NCBI RefSeq assembly: GCF_000186865.1
Contig: NW_008705563.1
Coordinates: 1,523,449 to 1,587,448, forward strand
Direction of reading: 5' to 3'
DNA length: 64,000 bases
Source: Aureococcus anophagefferens
Taxonomy: Eukaryota > Sar > Pelagophyceae > Pelagomonadales > Pelagomonadaceae
Shown here piece after piece: positions 10,240 through 64,000 of this stretch; positions within the stretch are counted from its first letter, which is position 1; the number at the start of each line of letters is the position of its first letter. The notes below the pieces were generated by a model. The model saw only the letters and a list, made by a program, of their open reading frames with translations. It had not been told where the DNA came from and made no database searches. The translations under genes were made by a program, and so were the position numbers.

Positions 10240-12617
10240 CTATGTAACGCGCCCTTCGACCTCGACACAGCTCAGAGGCTGGCCCTGTGAGCAAAATTCC
10301 GCGGCGCCCGGCGGGAGCGGGCAGGTCCAGGCGTTGCCCTCGACGCCGCAGCCGACGTACTGGTGGAACGGGAGCGCGGGCAGCGCGCCGCCGAGGCCCG
10401 GCCGCGAGCGGACGAGGTGGTTGCCCTCGATCTGGAGGACCGCGAGGTAGGCCATGTCCGCGAGCGACGCCGGGATCGTGCCCACGAGGCCGTTGTACTC
10501 GAGGTCGACGGCGACGACGCGTTTCCGGCCGCCGCGGTCCGCGCACGCGATCTCGCCGCCGAACGTCAAACACGAGCACGGGTCGTCGCGGTACTCCCCG
10601 CAGTAGGTCCAGGACGCGTTGCCGCCGGAGGCGTCGTAGAGGTCGCGCCAGGCCGCGCAGTCCGCGGCGTCGAGGCCCGCGGACTCGCCGACGCAGCCGT
10701 CCGCGGCCGCGCGCGCCGCCTCGTCCGCGCCCCAGGCCGCGTGGCGCGCGAAGACCCAGGCCGGCGTCGCCGGCGGCGGCGCGTCGCCGCGCAGGGTCGC
10801 GTGGTAATTCCGGTTGTCGTGGTCCACGGGCGCGTAGGGCCGCGCGTCCGCGGCCCAGGCCGGCGCCTCCGCGCCGGGCGAGTCGTCGCCGCAGCAGGGC
10901 AGGAGCAGGAACTCGTCGTCGCGGTCCCGCCTACGAAACGCGGCGTCTTCCCGCGCGACGCCGCGAAAGGACGCCGATACCCGCGAGTTGTCGAAGGCCC
11001 ACTGGTGGTCCCCCGGCTGGCCGCCGCGCTCGTAGTGGAGCCCGCTCACGTCGCCGTGCCAGCAGGCGATGGTGTAGGGGAACTTCGACGACACGTGGTA
11101 GTGGCTGCGTTTGGGGGGAAAAGACGCTCGAGCGCAGGGCGAAGGAACGAAAGACGCGGGAGGACGCGCTAGCTGCGGTTCGACTCGGGCGTCGCCCCGA
11201 AGTGCCCCATGCAGCGGTCCAGGTCGTCCGGCTCCCGCCGGTCCGCGTCGTACTTGCCGTACAACCCGAAGCCGTCGGCGGCCCAGCCGATGAGCTTCGA
11301 GTGGCCGCTTGTCGTGTCGTCGTACATGCAGACGGGGTCGCCGTGGTAGTGGATGTCGAAGCCGCGGCCGCTGTGCTCGTTGCAGGAGTCCATCTGCCCG
11401 TCGAGCATCATGTTCTTCGCGCGGTCCCTGCCGTCCGTGGTCTCGTTGGCCTTGTCGACGCGGGGGATGTCGGGGAACATGATGGGATACATCGACAGCG
11501 CGTCGAGCGTCATCGCGAGCGCGCCGGCTCCCAGGTAGTCCGTCGCGTTCGCGCTGTACGTCGGGTCGAGGGGGATGCGGTAAGCCATTGATTGCGTGTT
11601 CCAGAGGCGCACCTGCGGGGTTCGGCGTCGCGGTCGTTGCTTCTCTCCGGGACGCGGCCGCCGCGCGCTCAGGTCGCCGCTCGGCGGGCCGCTGCCCGCG
11701 GGCTTCGGGACCTCTTCGAGGAAGACGTCGTGGTTCGGGACCGCGTCGGACCAGACGACGAGCGAGTCGTTGGTGCAGTACGCGCCTACGACGAGGCATA
11801 TCGATGACGATTTTTTCCCGGTCAAAAGCTCTCGAAAATCGTCACGGCCGCAAGGACGCTGGTAGGCACCGGAGATGTGGTCGCCGTGCCACAAGAGACT
11901 CTTCCCGACGTCGCACTGGGGATACGCGGCCTTGGACGCCGCGGCGCACGGCTGGCACGCGCGGCCTTCGACGGGCTTCGCCGGGCTTCCGGCGCCTCGC
12001 GCGCGCCCGTCCCCGCGGACGGCCGCGTCGACGCCCGCGCCGTGGCGCTCGCCCGTGGCCCAGTCCACGCACACGGCGTGGCAGTGCTCCGCGGCGCCCG
12101 GCGGCAGCGGGCAGTCGAACGCGTTCGTCCGCGGGTCGTCGCTCTGGTCGTAGGCGTTCATGACCGTCGACGACAGGAAGCAGCAGTCGTCGCGCGTGCC
12201 GTAGCCGCAGCCGCGGATCTTGGAGTAGTTGATGGCCGGCAGCGGGCCGCTGAAGTTGTTGTAGGCGACCATGAGGTAGCGCAAGTCGTCGAGGTCCCCG
12301 AGCGCCGCGGGCAGCGGGCCGGCGAGCCCGCGGCCGCCGACGTCGAAGCCGACGATGCGCGCGCCGTCGGCGCTGCAGTCGACGTACTTGGGCGTGGCGC
12401 AGGGGTCGAGGCGCGCCATGGAGCCGATCTCGATGTCGCGCGGCATGCCCGGCGCCGCCGACGCGTTCTTGGGCATGGGCGCGACGATGGCGTCGTAGAT
12501 GCGCAGCCAGGCCTCGCAGTCCTTGGGCGCGAGGCGCGCCGATTCGTTGACGCACGGCCCGCCGAGCCTCGCGGCGGCGGCGGGCAGGAGGGCCAGGAGG
12601 ATTGGGAGGCAGCCCAT
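10240..12617 (-). CDS. Secreted LRR-YHYH-LRR protein (four exons)
   Basis: Exons on the minus strand are 11870-12617, 11185-11785, 10985-11104 and 10240-10930, giving 719 residues in frame. A signal peptide (MGCLPILLALLPAAAA) is followed by a plant-type leucine-rich segment (GLAGPLPAALGDLDDLRYLMVAYNNFSGPLP) ending in DCPLPPGAAEHC. The middle is a YHYH domain: VRLWNTQSMAYRIPL, FDIHYHGDPVC, LIGWAADGFGLYGKYD, then HYHVSSKFPYTIACWHG. The C-terminal part is a second LRR block (YNGLVGTIPASLADMAYLAVLQ) that closes with a near copy of the first cap (TCPLPPGAAEFC). Exons 1/2 and 3/4 are joined across family C introners; 2/3 is an ordinary intron. A Pro/Arg-rich stretch near 11640-11700 before VRLWNTQ may hide a further in-frame intron. 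Function of YHYH proteins is unknown. Confidence 0.75.
10931..10984 (-). mobile_element. Family C mini-introner (54-bp intron)
   Basis: Read on the minus strand, the intron begins GCGGGTAT, then CGGCGTCC, and ends TTTCGTAG before GCGGGACC. Removing it joins NS to RDRDDEFLLLPCC in the YHYH gene. The flanking duplication is decayed (5 of 8). The donor is GC. The length is a multiple of three, so retention would not shift the frame. Confidence 0.65.
11105..11184 (-). other. Ordinary 80-bp spliceosomal intron in the YHYH gene
   Basis: The exon frame ends at a TAG just after GHFGATPE and resumes one frame over at HYHVSSKFPYTI. A GT...AG intron from GTCGAACC to AAACGCAG, with a pyrimidine-rich stretch before the acceptor, joins them. 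It lacks the duplication and terminal sequences of the introner families. The exact donor is the least certain part. Confidence 0.6.
11786..11869 (-). mobile_element. Family C introner (84-bp intron) in the YHYH gene
   Basis: Minus strand: GTGCCTAC, then CAGCGTCCT, an inverted repeat TGACGATTTTC...GAAAAAATCGTCA, ending GTCGTAG before GCGCGTAC (6 of 8 match to the left copy). Splicing gives HISG-AYCTNDSLVVWSD. The donor is GT and the length is a multiple of three. Confidence 0.75.
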
Positions 12618-12656
12618 TGCTCTCCCTCGCGAAGGTGTTCAACGCCGACCTCAATT

Positions 12657-13863
12657 TTACGACGCGACGCGCGACGACGCGAAGGTGTGCTCCCCGCGCG
12701 GCTCGCCGTCGGCCGGCGCGACGGCGCGCGCCGTGAAGGGGTCGCCGCCGAAGTCGTAGGGCGGCGGCTCGGCGACGTCGAGGCGCGCGAGGAGCCCCCG
12801 GGCGACCGCGTCGACGTCCGCGTCGATCTTGAGGGCCGCGAACTCCTCGTCCACCGCGGGCCCGCGGTTGACGATGGCCAACTTGCAGGGCGCCGGCCGG
12901 ACCTTGCCGCGCTTCACCGTCGTCGCGAGGCGGAGCGGGAGCTTGGCCCACTTCGACGACGGGCACCAGGGGTCGAAGTAGTTCGCGAGCACGCCCATGC
13001 CTACGTGGAGACGGTTCCGTTCCCCCGGGCCGAGCAGGGTGGGACGCCGGCCGCGCGCTCGACCCCCAGACGACGACGAGGTCCGCCTCGCGCATGTGGC
13101 GCTTCGCGGCGCCGACGTTGTGTACGGCGTTGTCGCCCCAGGGGAAGCCGCCGGGCGTCTCGCCGAAGTCGACGGTCGAGTCGACGAGCCAGCCCGCGCC
13201 CCGCCGCGGCAGGTCGTCGCCGCGCGGCCGGCAGTTGGGGCAGGCGCGGCGCGTCACGTGGCGGCCCGCGGCGTTCGTTGCAAGGTACGTGTCGCCGTGG
13301 TACGTCACGAAGTCGCGGACGACGACGGCGCCGCAGCCCCTGGGCCGCAGGCGCCGGTCGGCCTCCCGCGCCGCCGCCCGCCCGTCGTCGCTCTCCGAGT
13401 CCGTCTCGCCCATGTCGCCGTCGCTGTCGCCGTCTTCGAAGTTTCCGCAGACTTCGACGAACGCGTTCCCGTGGAGCTCGCTGAGCTTCGCCGGCGCGAG
13501 GCCGCTCCGCAGGTGGAGCGCGTCCTCGTTCTGCGTGATGACGTGGGCGACGGTGCCGCCGGCGACGAGGGCCGCGATGGCCCGGTGCGCGAGCGTCGGC
13601 GCCGCGCCCGGGAGCCGCCAGTACATCGACGCGTCCCAGGGCGGCGGCGCGGCGCCCTTCGTCGCGCCGGGCTCGCCGCTCGCGAGGCCCTTGGCGACGG
13701 CCTCGGTCCAGATGCCGTCGGGCCCGCGGTAGTCGCGGATCTGCGCGTTCGTCGAGATGCCGGCGCCCGTGACGAAGACGACGTGCGACGCGGCTTGGAT
13801 AAGAGCCGCCAGCGCGTCGAGCTCGGCCTCGAGGCCCTTGCGCCGCTTCGACGAGCGCGTCAT
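12657..13863 (-). CDS. Sirtuin (SIRT6/7-like NAD-dependent deacylase), two exons
   Basis: Exons 13059-13863 and 12657-13000 give 382 residues. NAD-binding VTGAGISTNAQIRDYRGP (about 31-48) is followed by GIWT. The QNEDALHLRSG segment precedes the catalytic His in ELHGN (His131). DSTVDFGET and VVWGSSMGVLANY follow, as in SIRT6/7. The zinc module is unusual. The first CxxC is reduced to one Cys (EVCGN, Cys139), an acidic insertion follows (about 143-160), Cys177 may substitute, and CPNC (208-211) is intact. Nuclear chromatin deacylase activity is inferred from family. The exons join across a 58-bp introner inside the VVWGSS-MGVLAN motif. It lies 39 bases from the start of the YHYH gene and is divergent from the permease gene. 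Confidence 0.88.
13001..13058 (-). mobile_element. Family C mini-introner (58-bp intron) in the sirtuin gene
   Basis: Minus strand: GCGCGCGG, then CCGGCGTCCCAC, CGGGGGAACG, ending CCACGTAG. Splicing turns TCGA/GCATGGGC into an uninterrupted VVWGSSMGVLANY. The length equals the 58-bp copy at 19997. The duplication is no longer clear (about 4 of 8). The donor is GC. Confidence 0.65.
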
Positions 13864-14025
13864 GGTGGCGGGTTTGCAAGCGGCACAACGCGACGGGCAG
13901 CACTGCGTCAGGGAGAAGAGAGAAGCGACGGAGCGAGGCGCTCACATCAGCCGAGCTCTGCCGCAAAACTTCAAGAATCGCTGGTGCACTGCTCTTGCTG
14001 CTGACTCGATAGCCTGAGCCCGGCG
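13864..14025. promoter_or_regulatory. Divergent promoter spacer (sirtuin / permease)
   Basis: 162 bases separate two divergent ATGs. The spacer contains CTTCAA at 13969-13974, the hexamer recurring in other spacers here. No TATA box or other clear site. Confidence 0.35.
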
Positions 14026-15411: not shown

Positions 15412-15431
15412 CTAACATCTTAGGGAAACGA

Positions 15432-16868
15432 TCAGCTCGCGCGCGGCCGCCGGCGCCGCCGCCGCGGCTTCGCGGCCTTGCCCGCCTTGGCGCCGCTCCG
15501 CTCGAGGAGCGCGAGGCACGCCTTGCCGCGGAGGCGCGTCCGCCCGATGTGCTCGAGGCACACGTCGAGCGCCGTCGCGCCGCGCTCGTCGCGCTCCGCC
15601 GCGGACGCGCCGGCCTCGAGGAGCGGCGCGACGAGGTCCGGCTCGCCCGCGCGCGCCGCGAGGTGCAGCGGCGTCTGGCCGTAGCGATTCGGCGCGTCGA
15701 GGACGGCCCCGCGCCCGACGGCGCCGAGCAGGAGCCGGAGCACGGCCGCGTGCCGCCCGACGATCGCCGCGTGGAGCGGCGTGAACCGGTCGCGGTCCGC
15801 GCGGTGCGCGACGACGGCCGACGGCGCCGCCGCCGGCGCCGCGGCGAGCTCGACGGCGAGGAGCCGCGCGACGACGTCGGCGCGGCCCTTGAGCGCCGCG
15901 ACGTAGAGCGGGTGCTCGTGGCGGTGGTTCGGCATGCCGAGCGACTCCCCTAAGAACGGCGACGGCGCCGAGAGCGCGGCGACGGCGGCGCCCGCGCCCT
16001 GCTCCGCGGCGCGCACGAGGGCCGTCGAGCCCGCGTGGTCGCGGTGGAGCGGGTCCGCACCGAACGCCACGAGCGCCGCGCAGGCCGCCGCGTCGTCGCG
16101 GAGCGCCGCGGCGTGGAGCGGCGCGTGCTTCCGGCCGTCGACGGCCTCGAGCGCGGCCGCGAGGACCTCCGGCGTCGCGGCGCAGCGCGCGCGGAGCGCG
16201 CCGAGCTCCGCGACGGACGCGACGGCGAGGTCGACGGTCTCGACCCCGACGACGTGCCTCGCGACGACGTCGGCCGCCGCGGCGCCGAGGAACGTCGTTT
16301 CGACGACGGCGATGGTCCGCGGCGCGGGCGGCGGGTCGCCGTCGCCGTCGACGAGGCAGCCGCCGAGGAAGAGGACCTCGAGGCTCGGCAGCGCGCCGCG
16401 CGCGACGGCCCCGAGCAGCGCCGACGACACCGTGCCGTTCGTGAGGCCGAGGAGGCGCAGGCCCCGCGCCGTGGGCGCGCGCGGCGCGAGCCAGAGCACG
16501 TCGCCGATGTGCAGCGCCTCGAGGCCCTGCTTCGCCAGCGCGTCGCGCGCGACCGCGTCGCCGAGGCAGAAGCACTTGGACGCGACGACGGCACGCGCCG
16601 CCGCCGCCGCGACGAGCAGCTCCTCGGAGCGCACGTTGCCGTGGCGGAACCGCGCGCAGCGCATCGCGCCGGCGAGGGGCAGGAAGCGGTCCAGCGCTAC
16701 GCGGCGGCCGGTGAAGTGGAAGCTCAGCTCCGTCGACCGCGCGAGCGCGAGGACGCCGCGGCTCGCGCCGCGCAGGTTGCCGAGGTCGCGCGGCGTCCGC
16801 GCGCTGAGGAAGAGGCAGCTGCGGACGAGCTCCTCGGGCAGCGTTGCCAGCGCGCCGAGCGACGACAT
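15432..16868 (-). CDS. F-box-like ankyrin-repeat protein
   Basis: A 478-residue protein starting at the ATG at 16868 (MSSLGALATLPEELVRSC); another in-frame ATG is three codons upstream. The N-terminal ATLPEELVRSCLFLSARTPRD resembles an F-box. The centre has degenerate leucine-rich stretches (SLEVLFLGGCLVDG). From about residue 245 there are five or so ankyrin units, including HAPLHAAALRDDAAACAALV and QTPLHLAARAGEPDLVAPLLEAGA. The C-terminus is basic ([11 protein letters not shown]). A role as substrate adaptor for an SCF ubiquitin ligase is plausible. Just upstream on the same strand (16987 to 16870) a second frame reads MAARFGSLINIDLIRFLDL and on; this may be an upstream exon or peptide, but no splice joining was found. 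Confidence 0.7.
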   Translation of the reverse strand: MSSLGALATLPEELVRSCLFLSARTPRDLGNLRGASRGVLALARSTELSFHFTGRRVALDRFLPLAGAMRCARFRHGNVRSEELLVAAAAARAVVASKCFCLGDAVARDALAKQGLEALHIGDVLWLAPRAPTARGLRLLGLTNGTVSSALLGAVARGALPSLEVLFLGGCLVDGDGDPPPAPRTIAVVETTFLGAAAADVVARHVVGVETVDLAVASVAELGALRARCAATPEVLAAALEAVDGRKHAPLHAAALRDDAAACAALVAFGADPLHRDHAGSTALVRAAEQGAGAAVAALSAPSPFLGESLGMPNHRHEHPLYVAALKGRADVVARLLAVELAAAPAAAPSAVVAHRADRDRFTPLHAAIVGRHAAVLRLLLGAVGRGAVLDAPNRYGQTPLHLAARAGEPDLVAPLLEAGASAAERDERGATALDVCLEHIGRTRLRGKACLALLERSGAKAGKAAKPRRRRRRPRAS

Positions 16869-17271: not shown

Positions 17272-17272
17272 C

Positions 17273-17887: not shown

Positions 17888-17901
17888 GCTGATACCACCT
17901 T

Positions 17902-18866
17902 TTAAGCCCAGCAGTCCAGTTCGACGCCGCCGCGCGTGTCCGCGACGGCGATGAGCGAGAGAAGGGCGCCGAATTGCCGGCCGTGGCGGTCGCCGACGCG
18001 GTGGAGCTCGCGCGTGCTCCGGCAGGCGAGGATCTCCGGGAGCAGGTCGGAACCGAACGTCTTGCGGCCGTCGAAGAAGAGGTCGCCGACGACCTACCGA
18101 ACGCGTCGGTGACGACTTTTCGTCGTTTTCCCGGCCAAAATCTCTCGAAAATTGTCAGGACGCCGCCGAGGACGCGACACTCGACCTGGTGGTACTCCGC
18201 GCAGAGTAATCGCAGCGCGGCGTGGTCCGCCGTGACGCGCTCGAGGAGGTCGACGAAGCGGCGCGCGGAGAAGACGGGCACGCGCGCGCGCCCGTCCGAG
18301 AGGTTGAAGAGGCAGACGAGCGACGCCGTCAGCGCGTCGGAGAACTCGAGGCCGTCGCGGTCCGTCGCGCCCGACGCTCTCACGACGAAGCAGTCCCGGA
18401 GCGGCGGGAGCGTCGCCGCGAGGACGAGGATCCACCGGATGTTCGTCGACGCCGCGGGCACGTCCTGCAGCCAGCGCAGGTACTTTTGGTACTTGCAGCC
18501 CGGCGACGGCGCGGCTCGCAGCGCGGCGGCGTGGCGCGCGAGCGCCGCGGCGACGCGCTCGCGGTCGCCGGCCGCGTCGCCGAGCGCCTCGCGGAGCGCG
18601 CCGCGGCGGAACGCGTCCGTCTTTCTAGCGCCGAGCCGCGACGACCACTTCCGGCCCAGGGACGGCGGCAGCGCCGCGGCGATGATGCAGCGGGCCCAGA
18701 CGTCGCGCGGCACGCTCGAATCTCGCCGGAGGGCTCGCACGGCGGCGATGGCCGAGAGCCCGTCGCAGGCGTACTCGATGATGAGCTGGACGAGCTCCTC
18801 CGGCAGCGGCTCCACGGGATCGTCGGCGGCGCGCGACGCGCCGAGCGCCGCGGCGCCGACGCCCAT
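17902..18866 (-). CDS. F-box-like protein of unknown target, two exons
   Basis: Exons 18174-18866 and 17902-18093 give 294 residues. The N-terminal PVEPLPEELVQLIIEYACDG is F-box-like. The rest is helical: WARCIIAAALPPSLGRKW, STNIRWILVLAATLPPLRDC, LTASLVCLFNLSDGRAR. Without the intron the last 70 residues are a Ser/Arg-rich out-of-frame read. With it they become VVGDLFFDGRKTFGSDLLPE and on to GVELDCWA, in better agreement with the rest of the protein. That is the evidence for the family C introner at 18094. A start 25 codons upstream (18941) is possible but would leave only 24 bases to the divergent gene. Confidence 0.65.
18094..18173 (-). mobile_element. Family C introner (80-bp intron)
   Basis: Minus strand: GTCCTCGG, CGGCGTCCTGACAATTTTC, GGCCGGGAAAACG, ending CGTTCGGTAG before GTCGTCGG (7 of 8 match to the left copy). 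The donor is GT. The length is not a multiple of three, and removal switches the downstream frame to the protein-like one. Confidence 0.8.
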
Positions 18867-18965: not shown

Positions 18966-20359
18966 ATGGCACTTAGCATGCGGACCGCATTGGCCCTCGC
19001 CCTCGCGACGGCGGCTGCCCAGCCGTCGAACTCGACCTATTACGGCATGTACAAGGCGACGTGGGCGACGTCGGACCCCATCCACACGACCTACCCCTTC
19101 CTCACGGAGCTTTTGGGCAACCTGCCCACGGACAACAACTGTCCCAATCTGACCTGCGCCTGCGGCACGCAGGGCCGCACGGAGCTCAACGGCACGCACG
19201 GGTTCGGGAGCGAGGACCACTTCGGCGTCCACACCGTCGAGGCCGCGGGCGTCAACGGGAGCCGGCTCCGCGCGTCAGGCGCGTATTCGCTCGAGGAGAT
19301 CGAGGCGATCTGGGGCGCGGCGCTCGGCGAGATGGACGCCTACGACACGTTCCTCGATAACCATCTCGCGCTCTGGGCCCCGGACCTGGCCCCCTACGTC
19401 GAGCGCTTCCAGGCCGCGGCCGTGCCGGCGCTCGGCCTCCGGTGGGCGTTCCGAGGCGAGCGCTACGCGAGCCTCCTGGTCCACGTGCCCAAGTCCCAGG
19501 TCGTCCTCGAGCTCATCTCGCAGACCGCGCCGCCGGGCGTCCGCCAGCGTCCTGCATCCGTGGCGGCTTTCGAGAAATTTTGACCGGCAAAACGATGAAA
19601 GATCTTTACCGACGCATGTGGTAGGCGTCCGCTGGGTCGCCGTCGACGAGGTCCGCCACCGCTTCGAGGACGGGCCGCCGGCCGTGGCCGCCGGGCGCCT
19701 CGAGCCGCTCCACGTGAGCCGCTTCGCGGCGGATCTCGACGTCATCGAGGTCTTCTACGACCGGGTCCTCGGCGAGAAGCCGAGCGCCGTCGACTTTCCG
19801 CTCGACGAGGCGGACCCGACGTCGAAGCGCCTCGTCTACGGCGGGCCGGGCTCGTTCACGCCCGACGTCGCGCTCGTCTTCGTGACGCGCGCCGAGCCCT
19901 CGAACCGCGCGCGCTCCGCGTCCTGGTTCCAGCGCTACGCCGTCGCCGTCGGCGAGCACTACATGCGCAACTACACGGACTGCTGGCCCGTCTGGGGCGA
20001 CGACCGGCGTCCCGCGACGATGTTCGACCGGGAACGCGACGGAACGTCCCGTAGGCGACAACCACGTCGCGGTCCAGATGAACCGCGTGACCCCGGGCGC
20101 GCCGACGCTCGACGACGTCGTCGCGAACCTCGACGCCATGGGCTGGCACCTGCACCACCCGTTCAAGGGCGCGTGCAAGGCGCCCGGCGACTGCGGGCCG
20201 AGCGACATCTACCTCATGGACCCGAGCGGCTGGACGACGCAGCTCGTGTCGCCCGTGGGCTTCAAGAATACGACGCTCCCGGGCGCGGACGTCGACAGCG
20301 GCGGCCTCTCGGGCTACTGCTTCGAGTTCTGCGAGCACTTACGCGCGCCGTGCGAGTAA
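18966..20359 (+). CDS. Secreted glyoxalase-fold (VOC-like) protein, three exons
   Basis: Exons 18966-19536, 19625-19996 and 20055-20359 give 415 residues. A signal peptide (MALSMRTALALALATAAA) is followed by a Cys-containing N-terminal segment (NLTCACGTQGRTELNGTHG) with possible N-glycosylation sites. Two VOC-like halves follow. One includes HVSRFAADLDVIEVFYDRVLG, resembling the start of a glyoxalase-fold module, and the last has MGWHLHHPF and LMDPSGWTTQLV, resembling its closing strands. The final residues (YCFEFCEHLRAPCE) are Cys-rich. Both introns are family C introners, and the protein only reads through when both are removed. Enzymatic activity is unknown; the usual metal-ligand pattern could not be assigned with confidence. 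Confidence 0.75.
19537..19624 (+). mobile_element. Family C introner (88-bp intron)
   Basis: Perfect 8-bp duplication GCGTCCGC at 19537-19544 and 19625-19632. The element starts CAGCGTCCTGC, contains GACCGGCAAAACGATGAAA, and ends ATGTGGTAG. Splicing gives APPG-VRWVAVDEV. The donor is GC. Confidence 0.88.
19997..20054 (+). mobile_element. Family C mini-introner (58-bp intron)
   Basis: Duplication GCGACGAC / GCGACAAC (7 of 8). The element starts CGGCGTCCCGCGACGATG, contains GACCGGGAACG, and ends CGTCCCGTAG. Splicing gives CWPVWG-DNHVAVQMNRV. The donor is GC. The length is not a multiple of three. Confidence 0.82.
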
Positions 20360-25753: not shown

Positions 25754-28700
25754 TTAGGCGGGCGGGGCGCCGGCGTCCTCCCCGGGCGGCGGGTTCGCCT
25801 CCGCGGCGGGCGCCTCGTCCCCCGCGGCGTCCTCGTCGTCGTCCGCGGGCGCCTCGTCGTCGTCGCCGTCCGCGGCGCGGTCGCCGTCGTCCGCGGCGCG
25901 GCCGCCGCCCGCGCGGACGACGCCGACGTCCCCCCCGCCGAGCTGGACGCCCGCGGCGACGCGGACGCCGTCGGCGACGACGACGACGGAGCTCGGCGAC
26001 ACGGGCGCGAGCTCGACGTCGCCCGGCGCGGCGCGGCGCGCGGCGCTCCTCGACGGCCGCCGGCTCCGGGACGGCGACCGCGCGCCCGGCGACGGCGGCC
26101 GCGGCGGCCGCGGGTGGACGCGGGGGATGGCGACCTGCTTGCACATGGGGCAGGAGTTGCGCCCCCGGAGCCAGGGGCCGATGCAGTCGCCGTGGAAGAG
26201 GTGGCCGCACCGCGGGAGCGCGACCTGGGCAGCACAAGAGAGATTCAACGTCGCTTCAACGTGAGTGTTTCGCGCGCGCGCGTTACGAAAAACACATCCA
26301 CGCTTCGAGACCGTTCCGAGAGATGATCGCTCGTCGAAAAATCAGCCGAAACGAGTGGAAAATGGCCGAGATCGGAGACTTTGAAGTTGGGAATTTCGCT
26401 CTCTTGTCCTGCCCTGAGCGCGACGGCGGGCTCCGCGTCGTCGCCCGCGAGGTCCGAGAGGCAGATGGCGCAGATGTCGTCGTCGCCCGCGGCGCCGGCG
26501 ACGCCCGCGTCGAGGCCCTCGCAGAGCGCGGCGACGGCGGCGTCGTAGGCCTCCGCGACGCGGCGCCGGACGTCGTCGCCGGGCGCGTCGCGGCGCGGCG
26601 GTGCGCCCGGCGCGTCGCGCCGCGGCGCGACGCGGCTCGCGACGCGCAGGTACAGGCGCCGCGCGGGGCCGAAGACGCGCGTCGCCGCCGTGGCCGTCAG
26701 CTGGGGCACGCGGCCCCGCCGCGGCGGGTCGCCGTCGCCCGCGGCGTCGCTCGCGTGCGCCTCGACGAGATCCTCCAAATCCGCGGCCGCGAGCCGGCTG
26801 AACGCCGTGGCCCCCCAGGGGTCGCCGCCGGCGAGGCCGCCGTCGCCGCCGCGGCCCCGAGGACCGCGGCGCCGCCGGCCGCCGCGCTGCGTCACGCAGA
26901 ACGCGAGGCAGAGCGAGCTCACGACGATCTCGACGACCACCAACACCGCGAGCCAGGGGTGGTTCCGCACAGACTTGCCCACGCCCACGCGCCGCTTCCG
27001 CGTCCGCCGCGTCACGACGACCGTGGCCCGCCCGTCGCCGCGGCCGTCGTCGTAGCGGTCGTCGTCCCAGACCGCGGGCCTGGGCAGGACAAGGGTGATT
27101 CAACGTCGCTTCAACGTGAGTGTTTCGCGCGCGCGCGTTCCGGAAAAAGCATCCACGCTTCGAGACCGTTCCGAGAGATGATCGCTCGTCCAAAAATCAG
27201 CCGAAACGAGTAGAAAATGGCTGAGATATGAGCCTTTGAAGTTGGGAATTTCGCTCTCTTGTCCTGCCCTGCCGCGGGCGCGCGCGGGCACGGCGCCGTC
27301 GCGTTGCCGAAGCAGACGCCGCACGCGTCCGCGGCCTCGCCCCGCCCCCCGCAGACGCCGCACCGATCCACCTTGGCCAGCCCGTTGCAGACGCCCAGGC
27401 AGTCCGCGTAGGCGCAGCACACCGTCGCGCCCGGCGCGCCGCTCTTCTCGAGCTCGCCGCGGTACGCGCCGCCGCCGCAGACGCCCAGGCAGTCCGCGTC
27501 GTCGAAGGCGCAGCAGACCTCGCCGTCGTCGTAGGCGGGCCGGCTCCCGTTCGCCGACGAGCACGCGCCCGCGCAGTCCGAAGAGGCCCAGAAGTCGTCC
27601 GCGCCGCAGCCGCCGGCTGTTGAACACCCGCACGCCCCGCACGCGCCGCACGCGGACGCGTTGGTCGTCATGTCGCCGGCCGCGCAGCCCCCCGAAGCTG
27701 TAGATCCCGCGGCGACGACCGCGACGGTCGGGAAGTCGGCGACCAGCGCCCGCTCGCCGTCCGTCTCCGTCGCCGCGCCGCCGTCGCCCGCGCCGCCGTC
27801 GACGTCGCCCGCGGGCGCCGCGTAGCGGAGCTCGACGGTGACGACATCGCCGGCGACGAGCGCCGCCGGCAGCGCGCAGGAGACCTCGACGGCGCCGCCG
27901 GGCTCGCCGGTCTCGGCGAACGCCGCGCGCGCGCCGCCGACCGACGCGCCGCCCTTGAGGAACGCGCAGCGAAACTCGAAGGCCGGCTCGCGCGCGCACC
28001 CGAAGAAGGCCGCGCGCAGCGTCGCGTTGCCGCCCTCGGGCGCGACGGCGTCGCCGCACCATTTCTCGGGCACGGGGCAGGCGACGACGCGCGCGTTCGA
28101 CCGCGGCGCCGCGCCCGCGTAGACGCCGGGCACCGTCGTCCCGAAGAGCTTCGCGCGGTCCGCCTGCGCGTCGCTCAGCGCGACGGCGTCCGACGCCGGG
28201 TCGAGGCGCAGCCCCACGAGCAGCGCCGCCGCGAGGTGGCCGTCCGCGCCGCGCAGCGCGCGGCTGTCGAGCACGCGCTCGTGCAGGATCTCGACGCGGC
28301 CGTCGCCGTGGAGCGTCGCGGCGAACCAGAGCCGCGCCTCCGGGTGGCCGAAGACGGACACGTTCTCGTAGCGCGCCGTCCAGGACCCGGGAGCCGCCGC
28401 GCCGTCGCCGCTCGCGACGCCCGGTTGGGCGGCGACGACGCGGCTCCGGCCGTCGTAGGACGGGTCCAGGTCCGTCACGAAGGCCGCGATCGCCGCGAAC
28501 CAGGACCCGTTCGTCGTGCAGAGCGGGAACATGGCGAAGAACGCGCCACACGGCGGCGTCGGGCCGACGAAGATCGCGCCGTTCGCGTTCGCGTAGGCCT
28601 CGTAGCGCCGCCGGTCGAGGAAGGGGAACCCGAAGTCGAGCGACCGCCGCGACATGGGCGAGTCGTCGACGTCCGACACGCGCAGCACGTCGCTGGCGTT

Positions 28701-29567: not shown

Positions 29568-29584
29568 GGCGCCCCGGGGAACGC

Positions 29585-50400: not shown

Positions 50401-53400
50401 CCGGCCGACGACGACGCGGAGGCACCGCACGACGCGCGCCTGCCACTGGGGCCCGAGCGCGGGCGTCGAGAAGGGCCGCTGCCCCTGGTCCGCGCTCGCC
50501 GCCGCGGTGCCGCCCGTCTCCGCCAGGTCGGCGAAGGAGACGTTGCCCGGCGCGACGACCTTCTTGTAGGACGCGGAGAAGTGGCCCACGGTTCTCGGCG
50601 AGTGGGCGTCGCCGCCGTCGTCGAAGTCGTGGCGGCCCGGCGACTCCGGGTGGTCCGCCCAGCTCAGCAACGATTGCGCCCGCGACTCCGCCGCGCCGGC
50701 GCCGCCCAAGGCGTCCGCGAGCTTGAGCAGGGCCGGCACCACGAGGAAGAGGTAGTCCGACAGCGCGCCCCGCAGCAGCATCGTCGCGCGGAGGATGAGC
50801 GCCAACCGCGTCTCGCTCAGCGCCGCGGGCGCCGTCAGGGCCTTGGCCTTCGTGAGCAACGGCGGCTCGTCGTCGAGGCCGCCGACGCCATACCCGTCGT
50901 CCTTGAGCGACACCGCGCGGCTCCGCGGCGGCTTCCCGGCGGGCGCCGACCCCTTCGCGTCGTCCTTCTTCTCGGCCCGCTTGCCGTCCCAGGGCGCGCG
51001 GCCGCCGCCCTCGAAGGGCGGTGCTAAAGAGGCCAGCAGCAGCGGCAGCGCCCGGGGTACCAAAGCCGCGAGGTGCTCGGACACGGACGTCGCGATCTCT
51101 TCCAATAACGGCACGACCTGCTCCAAGTGCTCCGCCCAGTAGTCCACCACCAACTCGAAGATGCGCGGCAGCCAGTCCCTCAGATGGTGGCGCACGATGG
51201 CCGCGAGCGCCGCGAGCTGCAATAACACGGACTCGCGCAGGCCCGGCTCGCAGGTCCGCGCGACGTCGAGGAGGTGCGGCACCTGGGCAGGACAAGAGTG
51301 CGAAATTCCCAACTTCAAAGGCTCTTCTCTCGGCCGGTTTCCACTCGTTTCGGCTGATTTTTGGACGAGCGATCATCTCTCGGAACGGTCTCGAAGCGTG
51401 GGTGCTTTTTCCGGAACGCGCGCGCGCGGAACACTCACGTTGAAGCGACGTTGAATCACCCTTGTCCTGCCCTGTGGGGCACGATGTTCCCCAGAAAGGG
51501 CACGCACCGCAGCCCCAGGCTCTGGAAGATGAACATCAGCGCCTGGGTCACGGCGGCGTGGTGCGCCGCGAGGGACCCGTCCCGCAACACGCGCACGAGC
51601 GCGTCGATGGCCACGCGCGCGTAGTAGTCCTCGCCCGCGGCGGGCGTCGCCGCGCGCGCCGCGCGGTCCTTGCCCTTGGCCCGCTTCTTGCCGTCCTTGC
51701 GGTGCGCGTCGCCGGCGAAGTCGTCGTCGTCGTCCCGGCGCGGCCCCACGTCCGCGCCGACGAGCCGCGCCTCGTAGTAGGCGCCGACGTCGTTCTTGCC
51801 CGCGCCGTCGACGCCGCGCTCGCCCGCGTGGATCAGGTCCGCCGGCGCGGGGTCGGAACCGCTCTCCCGGATCGCCGGCAGCGCCACGGCGCAGGACTGG
51901 GCGTACATGGCCGCCGCCGCCGGCTCGTCCTCGTCGTCCTCCAGCAACCCCGCGAGGTGCGGGCCCAGGAGCGGCGCCTCGACGTCCGCCTCGTCCTGTA
52001 CGGGGCTCGCGGGCACGTGCGACGAGAGGAGCTGGCGCTTGTCCTCGAGGTCGCGGCCGTCGACGCCCTCGGCGGCGTCGCCGTCGCGCTTCGGCGACGC
52101 GCCGGGGATCGCCATGGGCTCGGACTTGCCCGGGGCCTTGGGCTGGACCGCGCGCTCCGACCGCCGCCGCCGCGCCGCCGCGGCGAACGCGCGCGCCTTG
52201 GCCTTGGCCGTCGCCTCGCGCGACGCGCGCTGCACGAGCTCGAACTTGTAGGGGTCCAGGGCCCCCAGCAGGCCCAGGGCCCGCAGGGCTTCTCGACAGA
52301 GGGACCAGGGCGCGCCGCCGCGGTCGCCGGCCTCGCGGAGCGCCGCGGCCGCGCGCGGGTTGGCGCCCGGCGGCGCCGCGCCCGCGGACGAGCTCGCGAC
52401 CGCGCCGCCCGAGCTCTCGCACAACACCGCGAGCATGCGCGGCAGTAAGGGCGCGTGCTCGAGGTAGGGCGCGACGACGCAGCCCGCGGACGACGCGAGG
52501 CGCCCGAGCACGCGGAGCGCGAGCTCGCGCTTCCGCGACGACGACCGGTCGAGCAGCGCGTCGAAGAGCGGCGCGAGCACGCGCGGCTTGTAGACGACGA
52601 CGCGGCTCCGGGGCCCGAGCACGAGCACGCACTCGCCCAGCGCGTCCAGCGCCGCGCAGGCGAGGCGCGTCGGCACCTTCAGGCCGTCGTCGCGCGGCGC
52701 GGGCGCGATGTCGAGCGCCCGGGGCGCCGCGGCCTCGAGCGCCTTCACGGCCAGGTCGCGGTAGCCCAGCGGCAGCGCCGCGACGACCTCCGCGGCCAGG
52801 GGCCAGACGGCCTTGCGCGCGCGCGGGCTCTCGGCGCGCAGCGCGCCCGCCGCGAGCCGCGCGGCGCGCTCCTTCGCCGGCGCGTCCGACGCGGGGCACC
52901 GGAGCGTGTCCAACGCGCGCGCGAGCGCGGCGCGGACGCGGCTCAGCACGGCCGCCGGGTTCCGCGCCGCGAGGCGCCCCAGGAGCGCCAGCGCCGACAG
53001 CTGGAGCTCCGTGTCCTCGTCGTGGAGCAGCAGCGCGAGCGCGTCGACGTGCGCGCTCCGCGCCAAATGCCCGTCGAAGCGCGCGTCCGCCCGGAGCGCG
53101 CGGACGACCGCGCGCCGCGGCCCCGGGTCGTCGTCGGCGAGAGCCACCGCTAAGAGCCGCCGCAGCACATCATCAACAACCACGGCCGACGGCCCCGCGA
53201 AGTACCACGCGCCGAGCGGCGCGGCGCCCGGCTGCTTGGCCGTACGGCCCGCGCTCTCCGGCGCGGACCGCGCGCTCGACGCGAGCGACGCCTTGGGCGC
53301 CGGATCGCGCCGCGCGTCCTGGCTCGGCCGCCGGCCCCCGGACGCCGGGGGCTCCGACTCGGCGCCGGAGAAGCGCCGCTCCGGGTTCGACGCGGACGAC

Positions 53401-56213
53401 GCGCGCGGCCGGTCGTCGTCGTCGCCGTCGCGGCTGCCCCGGTCCGAGTCGCCGGAGTCGCCGCTGTCGTCGTCGTCGGCGTCGTCGTCGCTGTCGTCGG
53501 GCCGCCGGGGCCCGTCGGTTTCCGCCGGGAGCCGCGCGTTGAGCTCCGCGAGCGGCGGCAGGAGCAGCCGCGCCTGGGCGGGAAAAGAGAGATTCAACGT
53601 CGCTTCAACGTGAGTGTTCCGCGCGCGCGCGTTCCGGAAAAAGCATCCACGCTTCGAGACCGTTCCGAGAGATGATCGCTCGTCCAAAAATCAGCCGAAA
53701 CGAGCGGGAAACGGCCGAGAGAGGAGCCTTTGAAGTTGGGCATTTCGCTCTCTTGTGCTGCCCCGAGCCGCGCGCAGCTCGCGACCGCGGCGGACCGCAC
53801 CGCGGCGGACGACGCGTCGAGGTAGCGGCTCGCGCAGTCCCGCGCCAGCGGCAGGAGGCACACGCCCTCCATGGAGAAGGAGCCCAGGGTCCGCAGGGAC
53901 AGGAGGATCAAGTCCTCGTCGCGCGCGTCGACCTCGAGGCGCGTCCTCGGCGCCGAGTCCGCGCGGCGCCGCCGCGGCCGCGGCAGGGGCCGCGCCCAGC
54001 CCGGCGGCGCGTAGGGCGACGCGTCGAAATCCAGCACGGACGTCAACGCGTCGAGGAGCCGCGCGCGCACCGCGGGCCGCCGCGACGGCAGCGCCTTGGC
54101 GACGACGCCGAGCGCGCGGATCAGGGGGTCGCAGAGCCCGTTCGCGAACAGGGCGTCCAACAACGCGTCGGCGTGCGGCGGCGGGATCTTCTCCCCCAGC
54201 GCCTCGAAGACGTCGGCGACGCAGTCGACGACGACGCCGCGGCGCCGCTTCTCCTCGGGCGACGCCGGCGCCGCGACCTCGCGCCGCGCGCCCCGCGCGC
54301 GCGAGAACGCGCCCCGCGCGACGCCCCGCAGCTCCGGCGCGCCGCTCAGCAGCGCGTCGTCGAGCGGGTCCGACGCGTGGGGCGCGCCGGACCGCAGGAA
54401 GCCCAGCGAGCCCGACGCGTCGAGCGACGGGGAAGCCTCGTAGGGGCAGTTGAGCCCCGACTCGCAGAGCGTCGCGACGATCTCCGGCAGGGCCGGCACG
54501 AGGTGGTGCTTCACGGCCAGCGCGAGGCGGCCCATGGCCTCGTAGGCCGCGTCCCGCAGCTCGCCGGACGTCCGGTGCACGGCCATCGCGAGCAGGTGCT
54601 TCGTCGTGCCCTTCAAGTACGCGCGCGCGAACGCGTCGGGGCAGTACTGGGCCAACCTCGGTAGCAAATCCGTGACGGCCTTGCGGATGGCGCGGCTCCG
54701 GTGCTCCCGCAGCGCGATGGCCGCGTCGCAGGCCTCGCGGAACCTGTGTGGAAATCAACCAGTGAGCTGGGACGTCGGGGCCAAACTTGAGAATTCTCTA
54801 GCTCGGTCACATCGACGTCGATTCGGCTGATTTTTGGACGGATCGATCGCTCTCGTCGAGTTCTCGAAGCCCAGCCGAAGGGCTTGTGTCAAAACATTCG
54901 AATACGCGCACATTGAAGTCGGGTTGAAGATTTGATTTCCACGCAGCGCGGAACCGCGGCATCATGAACCCGCCCGCGTGGCGCAGGAGCGCGCCGACGG
55001 CCAGCAGCGCGCCGTGGCCCGTGGCCTCCGTCGCCGCCATGGCCGGCGCCGGCGAGCCCGGGGTCGCCGACGACCCCCGCCGCCGGCCGCCGGGCGACGC
55101 GCCGTCCGTCGACGGCGCGAGCGACGCGGACCGCGCGAAGCGGCGCGGCGTCCGGTCGCCCGCGGACGACGCGTCGGAGCCGCGGCGTCGAAACAGGCGC
55201 TTCAGGGACCAGGGCGTCTCCGGCGAGCCCGCGCTCTCCGGCGCCGGCGCCGCCGCGGGCGCGTCGCCCGCGACGTAGTCCGCCTGCAGCTCCTCCGGTA
55301 AAGACCGGCGCCGCTCCGCGGCCTTCTCCGGCGACTTGATGCGCAGGAACGCGTTCGCGGCCTCGTACTTGTCGACGTGGGGGGCCAGGGCCGCGTGGGC
55401 CTTGGCGTAGATGGCGCAGTAGAAGTGGCTGTGCTGCGCCGTCGGCCGCCGCGCGACGATCTCCAAAGCCGCGCCGAGCGCCGCGGCCGCGGCCTCGCGG
55501 ACGTCCGGCGACCGCGCGTCCATCAGCGCGGGCCAGACGCGCTCGAAGAAGTCGCGCACGCGCGCGTAGAAGAGCGTCGGCGCGTGCTTCGCGAGCTCGC
55601 GGAGCACCAAACACGCGGCGAGCCGCCGCTGCGCGCCGCCGGGCGCGTCCGCGGCGGCCTTGGCGCCGCCCAGATGGCCGTCGGCGCCCGCGGGCCGCTG
55701 GAGCCACTCCAGCGCCCGGCCGACCTCGAACTCGACGTGGTCGCTGCTGCTCGCGGGGCCCCGCCGCGCGAGTCTCCCGAGCGCGGCGGCCGTCCGCGTC
55801 ACGAACTGGCGCTGGCCCTCGGGCGACCCGAGGAACTGGCTACTCCCGCCGCGGCCGTCGCCGACGCAGCACTGCTTGAGCGCGTTCGACAGCACGTTGG
55901 CGAACTTGATGCCCTTGGTCTCGGGCTCCGCGCTCGGCGCGCCGACGAGCGCCTCGATCGCCGCGACGCCGCCCAGGCGCTCCTCGACGTCGCCGCCGTG
56001 GTGCACCATGCGGAACAGGGTGCTGTAGAGCTCGTCCTCGAAGCGGCCGAAGGTCTCGCCGCTCATCTCCCGCGCGGCGCGGGACACGAGGCGCCGCAGC
56101 TGGTACGCCGCGAGCGTGCGCTCGCTCTCGTGCGACGCCCGCAGCAGCGTGAGAAGCGCTTCTCGCTCGAAGGCGTCCATGACGCTGAACGACGGGTCCA
56201 GCGAGCGGGCCAT
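44445..56213 (-). CDS. TOR: Target of rapamycin (TOR) kinase, six exons, all five introns are introners
   Basis: Exons on the minus strand: 54955-56213, 53774-54743, 51483-53573, 46898-51282, 45769-46685 and 44445-45557. They encode about 3,578 codons including a 50-N gap, larger than animal mTOR. HEAT repeats fill the first half. The FAT region includes [20 protein letters not shown] then [14 protein letters not shown]. The FRB domain (about 46905-47240) has [20 protein letters not shown] then RLYFG and [10 protein letters not shown], keeping the Ser and aromatic residues of the rapamycin-FKBP12 interface. The kinase domain has [39 protein letters not shown] and [11 protein letters not shown]. 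The FATC end is [17 protein letters not shown] long acidic/Ser-rich insertion separates kinase and FATC, with the gap inside it. It is the catalytic subunit of TORC1/2 growth control. Confidence 0.96.
45083..45132. other. Assembly gap (50 N) in a GTC repeat inside TOR exon 6
   Basis: Fifty N flanked on both sides by (GTC)n that encodes poly-Asp on the minus strand. The flanking frames disagree as drawn. An intact gene needs the true gap to be 1 modulo 3 (for example 49 or 52), so the size is nominal and the frame break is probably an artefact. Confidence 0.95.
45558..45768 (-). mobile_element. Family B introner (211-bp intron), TOR intron 5
   Basis: Duplication GCGACGAC / GCGACAAC (7 of 8). 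Ends are diverged (CCGCGTGGCATTCGAATC ... GAATTCAACATAG). Splicing gives [21 protein letters not shown], as in TOR kinases. The donor is GC. The TTCAACCCGACTTCAATG end lies at the gene's 5' side. It looks the oldest of the four B copies. Confidence 0.88.
46686..46897 (-). mobile_element. Family B introner (212-bp intron), TOR intron 4 (FRB/kinase junction)
   Basis: Perfect duplication GTACTACA. Starts CGGTGTGGAAATCAACC, ends TTGATTTCCACACAG. Splicing gives [22 protein letters not shown]. The donor is GT. Orientation is opposite to the copies at 45558 and 54744. Confidence 0.95.
51283..51482 (-). mobile_element. Family A introner (200-bp intron), TOR intron 3, reversed orientation
   Basis: Duplication GTGCCCCA / GTGCCGCA (7 of 8). 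Starts CAGGGCAGGACAAGGGTG, ends CACTCTTGTCCTGCCCAG. Splicing gives [19 protein letters not shown]. The donor is GT. Relative to the gene this copy is flipped compared with the other four A copies, yet the acceptor CAG is still supplied by the terminus. Confidence 0.93.
53574..53773 (-). mobile_element. Family A introner (200-bp intron), TOR intron 2
   Basis: Perfect duplication GCGCGGCT. Starts CGGGGCAGCACAAGAG, ends CTTTTCCCGCCCAG. Splicing gives [19 protein letters not shown]. The donor is GC. Forward orientation. Confidence 0.94.
54744..54954 (-). mobile_element. Family B introner (211-bp intron), TOR intron 1
   Basis: Perfect duplication GTTCCGCG. Starts CTGCGTGGAAATCAAATC, ends GGTTGATTTCCACACAG. 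Splicing gives [18 protein letters not shown]. The donor is GT. Confidence 0.95.
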
Positions 56214-57304: not shown

Positions 57305-57429
57305 TGGCTTATTTTGATCGCAAAAAAATACCACAGCGCATCTCAGACATGCGAGACGACCTCTCTGCAGCGCCGACTTGTAAGGTGCTTGGTCTTATAC
57401 ATAGGTCTCGTCCGCGCGCGGCGCTATGT

Positions 57430-58971
57430 TCAGGAGGCGAGGCCGGCGGCGGCGAGCTTCGCCTCGAGGTCGGCGATCTTCTTGTGCGCGTCCGCGAGCT
57501 CGACCTCGAGCTGCGCGGCCGTCTTTTTGGCGACGAACGCGGCCGCCGACGGCGCGGCGACGAAGCCCGCGTCCGGGTTCAGGGGCCGGAGCTTCGGCGG
57601 CTCGTTGGCGCCGGCGAGCCAGGCGTCGGCGTCGCAGGACGGGAGCCCCGCGTAGCAGTCCGGGAAGATGTCGTCCTGGAACGCGTCCGACTTCCGGGGC
57701 ACGACGAAGGACAGGGGCTCGACGACGCCGTTGCCGTTCTGGGACGTGAGCTTGAGGCACCGCGCGGTCTCGCAGGACATGACGTCGAGGCACCGCTTCG
57801 GCAGGAAGCAGTAGCCCTTGCCCGCGGCCGTCGACCGATGCTCCGAGAGCGCGAAGCACGGCGTCTTCGCGGCCTTGTTGATCTCGTAGTAGCGGATGTT
57901 GCCGTCGCCCTTGCCGCAGAGGTAGAGCATCTTCGTGTCCGGGTCGAAGAAGGGCAGGAGCACGCCCGCGGCCTGGTCGAGCGACACGAGCGCGAGCTCC
58001 TTGGACGGGTCGCGCGCGTCCCAGATCTTGATCTGGCGCTGGCTCTGGCGCGTGAAGCCCACGGTCGCCAGCAGGCCGTCCTGGAGGAAGGCGAGCTTGA
58101 CGGACTTGGACCCCTCGTGGGCGGCCCGGAGCTCCGTCGCGACCGCGGAGCCGCGCGGGTCGAAGAGGCGGACGACCTTGTCCTTGCAGCTCGTGCCTGT
58201 GTGCAAATCAAATATTCAACCCGACTTCAATGTGCGCTTAATCGACGGTTTCGACGCGAGGCTTTCTGCCGTGCTTCGAGAATTCGACGAGAGCAATCGA
58301 TTCGTCCAAAAATCAGCCGAATCGACTTCGATTTGACCGAGCTAGAGAATTCTGAAGTTTGATGGGGACCCCCCACTAACCAGTGGTTGGTTTCCACACA
58401 GGCTCGTGCCCAGCAGGCTCCCGTCGGCGTTCCATTGCACGTCCTGGATGAGGGACGTGTGCGCGTCCGTGGACGCGACCTCGCCCTGCTTCTCGACGTC
58501 CCAGACCTTGCAGAGCATGTCCGCGGACACGGACGCGAGCACGTTGCTCGCCGTCGGGTGGAACCGGAGCAGCGTGACCTTGCGGCCGTGGCCCCGCAGA
58601 TCCACGAGCGGCTCCGTGAGCGTCTCCGTCAAACCGCCCGGCGGGATGCCCCAGAGCTTCACCGTCGAGTCGTCGCTGCAGGACGCGAGCAGCTGCTCGT
58701 TGAACGGGTGGAAGTCGAAGTCGAGCGCCGCGCCCTTGTGGCCCGCGAGCACGGGGCCGCCCGTCGGGAACGCGCCCGTGGCGGTGTGGTCGACGACGGC
58801 GATGGGGCCGCCGCCGCCCTGGAGCGCGACGGCGAAGTACTTCGTGTTCGCCTTGACGTACTGCTGTTCGCCCGTCGTCGTCGCTAAACGGAGATTGCGG
58901 AACGTGTCCTCCTGCTTCGGGGGCTCGACGTACACATGCCGGAACTTGCTGTTGCGGATGAATGCCGACAT
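57430..58971 (-). CDS. Coronin (actin-binding WD40 protein), two exons
   Basis: Exons 58410-58971 and 57430-58196 give 442 residues. The start at 58971 yields the classic coronin N-terminus MSAFIRNSKFRHVYVEPPKQ, so the longer upstream frame is not used. WD40 repeats follow: GHKGAALDFDFHPFNEQLLA, SDDSTVKLWGIP, GHGRKVTLLRFHPT, ADMLCKVWDVE, CKDKVVRLFDPRG. The C-terminal extension (SCETARCLKLTSQNG, VVPRKSDAFQDDIFPDCY) and the final coiled coil (AQLEVELADAHKKIADLEAK) are family features. It regulates actin turnover through Arp2/3 and cofilin. The single intron is a family B introner, placed inside the third or fourth blade. Confidence 0.96.
58197..58409 (-). mobile_element. Family B introner (213-bp intron) in coronin
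   Basis: Perfect duplication GCACGAGC. Starts CTGTGTGGAAACCAACC, ends TTTGATTTGCACACAG. Splicing gives WNADGSLLGTSCKDKVVRL. The donor is GC. Same orientation as the copy at 46686. Confidence 0.95.
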
Positions 58972-60744: not shown

Positions 60745-60925
60745 CGTGCGAGCGCGGCCGTGCGCGCGGTCGGGACGGCGTCTGCGGCGCGAGGCGAGCG
60801 TCGCTAAGCGTAGGGCGACGATACTTGGTCTACACGCGAGAGCGCGCGGAGATCATAAGCTCGCAGAGCGCTTCAAATGATGTTGTTGAATTAGGCAACA
60901 TTACACGCCAGTTGGCACCTGAACG
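60745..60925. promoter_or_regulatory. Divergent promoter spacer (TOP6A / GT15)
   Basis: 181 bases between divergent starts. The region 60860-60905 is AT-rich with CTTCAA at 60871-60876. No TATA box. Confidence 0.35.
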
Positions 60926-62755: not shown

Positions 62756-62992
62756 GGCTTTTGGGGGTGTCTCGCGTGGCCGTGGCATCGGTGGGCCCCG
62801 GGGCGGACGGCTCGATTTACGCCTCGGCCTCGATTTGCCGCCGGGGAGGTCGCTGAACGCAGGCTGAGACAGCGGCTCGAGTTCGGTCGATATCCATTTG
62901 TACGTCGAGACCGTCGGCCGGTCACGCGTTCATCAAGCTCGACGCTCCAGCGCAAGCGCAAGGCCTACGCGAACCCGGGCGACCCGAAGTCG

Positions 62993-64000
62993 ATGGTCGT
63001 AAATCGCGCCATGCGGCGCCGTTCGGCGTGGGTCGTCGTCGCCGCCGCGATGGTCTCGATCTGTCGCGCCTCGATGAGTGGCGTCGAGGAGTACGAGCGC
63101 GGCGTGAGCCTGCGCAAGAGGAAGCGCCCGAAGGAAGCGCGCGAGGCCTTCTTCCGCGCGTCGCAGCTCGAGTACCCCGGCGCCCTCGCCCAGTGCCTCG
63201 AGGCCTTCAAGGACACGGACGACCTCTACCTGTTCCACGCGCAGATCGGCCAGGTGTACCTCGACCACGACCTGAAGAGCGAGTCGTGCACGCACGTGCT
63301 CCGTTCGCTCGAGCTCGCGCGGTTCAAGCAGGCCACGGACGAGTACAAACGGACCATGCAGGCGACCCTGGACATGGCCGAGCGGGTCTGCCCCCAGCAC
63401 CTGGGCACGAAGACGGCCGCGCGCGTCGCGCGGAAGGCGGGCTACGAATTCCGCTCTTCGCAAACGCCGCAGTACCGGACGTGGTCCGCGGTCTGGCGCG
63501 GCGTCCTGTGGCCGTGACGATTTTCGAGAGATGTCGGCTGGGAAAACGATGAAACATCGTTACCGTCACGCTTGGTAGGTCTGGCGCGACGCCTACGACG
63601 CCGCGGTCTCGACGTTGTCGCCGGCGAGAATCCTCTACTACTTCTTCGCCGACCATCGCGTGGAGTTTCCGACGGCGGTCGCGCCGGTCGCGCCGCGGCA
63701 GGCCGTCCCGGACCTGCCGTCGCTCGGCGGCCGGGGGCCCAAGCGCTGGTCGCCCGGGGAGCTCGCGAAGGCGCGGGCCGTCCACGAGGACCGCATCGCG
63801 GACCCGGCCTTCGCCAAGGCCATGGAGAAGCGGCGCGAGCTCGACTACTGGGGCCGCGACGACCCGCCCCTCGCGAGCAGCCCGAGGCACCCCGAGAACG
63901 CGGACATCGTCGGCCGGGCCGAGGCCGCGTGCGCCGCGTCGAAGGGAGGGTGCGACCGGCGCACGGCGGCGGAGGTCGGCATCATCGTCTGCGGCGGCGA
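62993..64000 (+). CDS. Secreted or ER protein of unknown family (3' truncated), two exons visible
   Basis: Exons 62993-63490 and 63579 onward; the gene runs out of the window with an open frame. An N-terminal basic/hydrophobic stretch (RRRSAWVVVAAAMVSICRAS) is a probable signal peptide; ATGs at 62993 and 63011 both fit. A helical TPR-like region follows (KEAREAFFRASQLEYPGALA, LYLFHAQIGQVYLDHDL). After the intron: VWRDAYDAAVSTLSPARILY and RRELDYWGRDDPPLAS. Cysteines late in the visible part (AACAASKGGCDRR) could be paired. No family recognised. The exon junction is fixed by a perfect 8-bp duplication around a family C introner. Confidence 0.65.
63491..63578 (+). mobile_element. Family C introner (88-bp intron)
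   Basis: Perfect duplication GTCTGGCG at 63491-63498 and 63579-63586. Starts CGGCGTCCTGTGGCCGTGAC, contains GGGAAAACGATGAAAC, ends CGCTTGGTAG. Splicing gives RTWSAVWRDAYDAA. The donor is GT. Without splicing the frame ends at a TGA within the element. Confidence 0.9.

Follow-up and report, generated by a model that had tools for sequence, protein, structure and literature searches.

The introners of the alga Aureococcus anophagefferens described by Huff, Zilberman and Roy in 2016 reportedly carry one splice site themselves and co-opt the other from the duplicated target. Passages elsewhere summarise this co-option (PMC10228655), give the length of these introners as about 210 bp (PMC9481584) and describe the published A. 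anophagefferens introners as canonical in splicing motif (PMC7789003). In Gozashti 2022 (PMC9860276), introner families have median lengths from 30 nt and GC donors at 0–50% across families, and an Aureococcus sp. family with 8-bp duplications (example at positions 3289-3365) is said to carry both splice sites and to add 12 nt. Here we follow up a first-pass annotation of a 64,000-nucleotide stretch of the A. anophagefferens genome (the window, part of one contig, 1523449-1587448), in which seven very short introns of common sequence had been noticed beside two larger introner families. The family to which they point, here called the short element, is very probably an 80-bp non-autonomous cut-and-paste DNA transposon (a miniature inverted-repeat transposable element, MITE) that makes introns, its splice donor being borrowed from duplicated host sequence, as judged from the genome sequence.

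The short element is an 80-bp imperfect inverted repeat of the form CRGCGTCC...GGTAG, with a CAGCGTCC-like 5′ end and a TAG-type 3′ end. Scanning the assembly (49.05 Mb in 86 contigs) returned 90 exact matches to a core 12-mer against 2 for the reversed control. With up to 3 mismatches, 119 matches to a core 31-mer and at least 309 to the 5′ end were found, and with up to 2 mismatches 250 to the 3′ end, each against 0 for its control. The hundreds of copies that the first-pass annotation had called for are thus present. The genes that they interrupt are unrelated to one another, among them kinase, desaturase, UbiA, M16 peptidase and ion-channel genes, so that one genome holds numerous introns of like sequence.

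In all, 162 copies were read. The 120 core-seeded loci (numbered L below) gave 115 of them and 20 loci seeded by the 5′ end gave 21; the seven window copies were added, one duplicate was removed, and loci seeded by the 3′ end gave 20 more. Core seeding used 89 of the 90 12-mer places, the second half of one tandem copy being omitted, and the 100 of the 119 31-mer matches that were listed; merging gave 130 loci, two of them in the window, and 120 of the remaining 128 were fetched. Five of these 120 had no ends under our end-finding rule and are excluded from the counts: L072 and L081 have altered ends, L022 has the acceptor GAG, and L065 and L071, where the 12-mer matches lie within unrelated sequence, were rejected as family members. 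One copy of the duplicated pair L067/L068 was dropped. The 5′-seeded loci were hand-picked, with preference for ones absent from the core list, out of 46 exact 5′ ends for which no exact 3′ end was listed as a partner, and the 3′-seeded loci were chosen from 56 unpaired 3′ ends. In L022 (678-756), the 8-bp duplication GTGGCTCT is intact around the copy that has GAG in place of TAG.

Lengths peak at 80 bp, with 94 of the first 142 copies at 79-81 bp. The size range of 54-88 bp first given for the family therefore describes the window copies, as elements of 46-80 bp plus the 8-bp left duplication, but is not confirmed as a natural range of the family. In 76 gap-free copies, base i opposes base 81-i, so that the inverted repeat runs from end to end; pairs 9-26/55-72 hold in 85.9% of cells, compared with 33.8-57.7% after sliding by 1-3 columns. 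Two-sided changes number 47, of which 30 fall at pair 11-70, and such counts are inflated by the kinship of the copies. The outermost eight bases of the two ends are unlike each other, the 5′ end reading CRGCGTCC (exact in 150 of 162 copies) and the 3′ end being a stretch that ends in TAG. The pairing is explained equally by a terminal repeat of DNA or by a stem in RNA. The earlier description of the elements as hairpins holds for the inverted repeat, which is seen family-wide; a stable hairpin in individual window copies was rejected, none of the seven folding better than shuffled sequences (z -0.79 to +1.79). Among nine sequences folded as single-stranded DNA, only L007 was clearly better than its shuffles (z -2.82). 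L012, L025 and L119 have copies of 103-134 bp with a repeated core inside one duplication pair, and L105 holds three partial profile matches within 700 bases (65-110, 333-381 and 701-748, minus strand).

The 8-bp sequences to the left and right of the element agree at 8/8 positions in 98 of the 162 copies, at 7/8 in 31, at 6/8 in 18 and at fewer in 15, whereas shuffled partners reach 8/8 in 0.1%. Counting against these rates, the end finder required a CRGCGTCC-like start and TAG and preferred matching duplications, which inflated them; of the 20 3′-seeded loci, read without the start motif, 13 have an 8/8 duplication at a CRGCGTCC start. Codon statistics derived from eight open reading frames of the window served to score orientation and coding phase; the scoring behind the phase mending and the comparison of left with right duplications, both given below, covered sense frames only. 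Once the left duplication and the element are removed, 115 of 142 scored copies are in sense with one phase, 7 are in sense with unequal phase, 4 are mixed and 16 are too weak; none is antisense. One coding frame is thus kept in 115 of the 122 scorable copies. In a separate scoring of 100 phase-consistent copies, 81 intron lengths were not multiples of three.

Protein comparisons point the same way, and splicing would restore the coding sequence. In a zeta-carotene desaturase gene (L112), the junction DFDG|GMDM falls in a block without gaps in all 120 of the homologues listed (4965 were reported). In a kinase gene (L104), it falls in the glycine loop, and both alignments displayed, each with a solved kinase, are free of gaps there. 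Pfam matches span the junction in five of six further genes tested, L016 being without any match; in L051 only the weaker AAA_21 match spans it, and the ABC match stops at the junction.

All seven stretches in the window exist as first described, lie in sense and end in TAG, and both perfect 8-bp duplications are where they had been placed (Table 1). Membership of the family is a narrower matter. A profile built from 76 full-length copies, two of them window copies (63499 and 19545), and scanned at E-values up to 5 finds five of the seven and misses those at 10931 and 13001. The former turns up solely with a profile that had it in its training set, and the latter was missed also by an earlier profile whose training copies took in 10931 and 20005 and left out 13001. 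Likewise, the coding phase continues in six of the seven, and at 13001 it fits only with one additional upstream base, the "extra C" of the first-pass annotation. If the frame is left unspliced at 19537, a stop codon is met inside the element, and removal of 19997-20054 restores the motif WPVWGDNH, common to several homologues. In P0011, a protein of a close relative (98% over 76%), the first of these two introns is absent and the second is read through, which would reflect a site left empty in another strain, or else incomplete splicing of the transcript.

Among 129 good duplications, the first two bases are GC in 79, GT in 48 and GA in 2, so that 127 begin with G followed by C or T (GY), against a GY background of 19% in nearby coding sequence (dinucleotides GC 14.7%, GT 4.6%, GA 6.7% and GG 9.1%). 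In phase-consistent copies, the starts GC:GT:GA:CT stand at 66:43:1:1. Relative to the number of sites available, the use of GT is about double that of GC, and the use of GA about one-thirtieth that of GC; donor positions 3-8 hold 0.01-0.11 bits. Intron phases (44/34/31) track how often GY is on offer at each codon position (p 0.37). In eight of the nine copies of unequal phase, one of them the doubtful 13001, lengthening the left duplication by 1-2 bases, judged by eye, mends the phase and puts GY first, which fits the left duplication being intronic. Four results, namely the GY start, the phase mending, the L112 homologues and the intron phases, thus favour a borrowed GY donor; on sequence grounds, the duplication would give the donor and the element bring the acceptor, as in a co-opted-donor introner.

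Alternatively, the intron may run from the GT within CRGC|GTCC to TAG, leaving the left duplication and CRGC (12 nt, four codons) in the mRNA. Several observations weigh against the borrowed donor, most of them in favour of this one. Of the 162 copies, 161 have the internal GT, and the 12 added bases also keep the frame, so that the phase test is blind between the two donors. The A. anophagefferens gene model P0010 (JL722_3017) uses the internal GT at 20005 and carries four extra residues, DDRR, that other homologues are without, and the family description in Gozashti 2022 (PMC9860276) gives the added part as exactly 4 bp from the introner and 8 bp from the target-site duplication. In 30 of 47 mismatched pairs it is the right duplication that looks more coding-like (30 vs 17, p 0.086, not significant), and one of the nine copies of unequal phase, L163, is unexplained by GY lengthening. 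An internal donor, however, leaves the GY start of 127 of 129 duplications without a reason, predicts a frameshift in the eight copies with the lengthened left duplication, and would put four residues into the L112 motif. The RNA sequencing check, as described in PMC9860276, left out genus-level TARA genomes, so that the Aureococcus sp. example appears to be annotation-based. We therefore consider splicing from the internal GT distinctly improbable. A mixed use, mainly of the borrowed GY with the internal GT as a back-up that gives a protein with four more residues, would suit the strong conservation of both sites and the frame, which is kept either way in most copies; the arguments against an internal donor apply to it in weaker form, and we regard it as rather unlikely.

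With the borrowed donor, P0010 and perhaps the published 12-nt-adding family would reflect gene finders preferring GT over the true GC donor, which we infer rather than prove. If GY suffices, the near absence of information at positions +3 to +8 means that recognition must rest on element-borne sequence and TAG, and GCGTCC, which hardly varies at intron positions +11 to +16, is possibly such a signal. We tentatively entertain, at somewhat less than an even chance, that the working donor is little more than GY, that it is recognised in this way, that this GC-majority family lies beyond the reported range, and that the 12-nt class is an artefact of gene models preferring GT. What may be new is a donor set dominated by GC in which hardly any consensus extends past GY; the published 12-nt-adding donor may be an annotation artefact.

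The short element would follow the published introner mechanism and is perhaps family 4 of Gozashti 2022 (Aureococcus sp. TARA_AOS_82_MAG_00129; PMC9860276), compared by description only, which makes the earlier remark that no description was known doubtful. As described there, family 4 is like the short element in genus, 8-bp duplications and size, and the 4 bp of introner that it is said to leave in the exon equal the CRGC before the internal GT. The two are set apart, again by description, in that family 4 is said to carry both splice sites, whereas the short element appears to borrow its donor. If RNA confirms them, its GC donors (61%, 79/129) fall outside the published range of 0-50% (PMC9860276). 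With the introners of Huff 2016 it shares the form of a short non-autonomous DNA transposon with terminal inverted and direct repeats; those introners resemble the larger window families F1 and F2 in their reported length (PMC9481584), while the short element has 80 bp, another sequence and the GC-rich donor set given above. The literature searched held no paper that we recognised as giving the sequence of the short element, the family sequences of Gozashti 2022 standing outside this comparison.

We propose that a transposase supplied in trans moves the element, which would probably insert in both orientations. Insertions that persist in genes would be those in sense with a duplication starting with GY, because the spliceosome would join the borrowed donor to the terminal TAG acceptor of the element. 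The duplicated host sequence would supply the donor with its first two bases, GC oftener than GT, and each insertion would probably be a removable intron. MITEs of the hAT superfamily have 8-bp duplications, symmetric CAG...CTG termini and an inverted repeat. The short element resembles them in its 8-bp duplication, its inverted repeat and the CAG start of most copies, and differs in its termini, 5′ CRG and 3′ TAG rather than CTG, which are not symmetric; a hAT-like transposase is thus an analogy. Two negative results count against such a mobile system: no longer relative was found among 20 loci with exact 5′ ends and no matching core or 3′ end, all of which hold copies of 69-83 bp, and the transposase families PF05699, PF18758 and PF14291 gave no match in the genome, where the controls were empty too. 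A search of the genome for U1 small nuclear RNA likewise gave 0 matches, with an empty control. Spread as RNA, by reverse splicing of the spliced intron, would account for copies that are intron-sized and in sense only, yet the 8-bp duplications of most copies and the end-to-end inverted repeat are marks of DNA transposition, and the left duplication, although it would lie inside the intron, differs from copy to copy; we find this route hardly credible.

Eight copies measure 43-58 bp; three lie in the window, and two of those three are doubtful. A perfect duplication flanks 1 of the 8 copies of up to 60 bp, compared with 64 of the 94 copies that measure 79-81 bp (Fisher p 0.003), and the eight all differ from one another in sequence, as expected of decaying copies. 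The suggestion that forms of 46-58 bp lie near the lower limit of a mobile intron was rejected on these grounds. The short forms look like old, shrinking introns, older copies presumably shedding sequence until they end at 43-58 bp. Those beyond the window were picked up through core words, a procedure that may miss others.

An 80-bp intron-maker that brings only an acceptor is a natural test of what the spliceosome needs of a donor: each copy would borrow a host 8-mer, so that the survivors, with the GC, GT and GA counts given above, resemble a selection experiment. The data also suggest that, at true GC donors, gene annotations of such algae may set the donor 12 nt off; if true, this affects protein models and a published mechanism class.

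Table 1. Short-element copies and other features of the window
Feature	Coordinates	Strand	Left duplication	Element	Right duplication	Match	Profile E-value	Remarks
Inferred intron, 88 nt	63491..63578	+	GTCTGGCG, 63491-63498	80 bp, 63499-63578	63579-63586	8/8	1.2e-25 (in training set)	coding phase continues
Inferred intron, 88 nt	19537..19624	+	GCGTCCGC, 19537-19544	80 bp, 19545-19624	19625-19632	8/8	2.6e-20 (in training set)	
Inferred intron, 58 nt	19997..20054	+	GCGACGAC, 19997-20004	50 bp, shortened, 20005-20054	GCGACAAC, 20055-20062	7/8	0.003 (independent)	
Inferred intron, 80 nt	18094..18173	-	GTCCTCGG, 18166-18173	72 bp, 18094-18165	GTCGTCGG, 18086-18093	7/8	1.4e-19 (independent)	coding phase continues
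Inferred intron, 84 nt	11786..11869	-	GTGCCTAC, 11862-11869	76 bp, 11786-11861	GCGCGTAC, 11778-11785	6/8	2.8e-15 (independent)	coding phase continues
Doubtful copy, 54 nt	10931..10984	-		46 bp, 10931-10976		5/8		phase continues
Doubtful copy, 58 nt	13001..13058	-	8-base stretch upstream of one extra base	49 bp, 13001-13049		3/8		
Gene with two short-family introns	18966..20359	+						415-amino-acid protein once 19537-19624 and 19997-20054 are removed; homologues found
Family F1	26220-26426, 27075-27281, 53569-53775	+		191-192 bp				
Family F1	31296-31483, 51279-51466	-		191-192 bp				
Family F2	45557-45758, 54743-54944	+		about 203-205 bp				
Family F2	46682-46863, 58193-58374	-		about 203-205 bp				

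The two larger families differ from the short element in sequence and terminal repeats and outnumber it, which bears out the earlier view of a separate, very short introner family with its own acceptor beside elements of 191-205 bp. F1, with five window copies, has the termini CAGGGCAG...CTGCCCAG, read in the other orientation, and 1812 pattern matches in the genome; its duplications agree at 7-8 of 8 positions in all five copies and, read gene-wise, also start with GT or GC. F2, with four window copies, has the termini CTGTGTGG...CCACRCAG-like and 1605 pattern matches; its duplications agree at 7-8 of 8 positions in three of the four copies, and the boundaries of one of these three (46640) are ambiguous.

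The window has a base composition of 72.6% GC. The 415-amino-acid protein shares long identical stretches with P0010 (91% in the alignment) and is 87% identical to P0014, also of A. anophagefferens; another window gene has weak A. anophagefferens matches, of 39% and 48% over short parts. An Rfam scan of the window and a promoter and terminator scan each gave 0 matches, as did Pfam on two further translations, and scans of viral contigs for the 5′ and 3′ ends of the short element gave 0 and 0. ARAGORN marked one tRNA-like stretch in the window, at 16268-16354, with a two-base anticodon.

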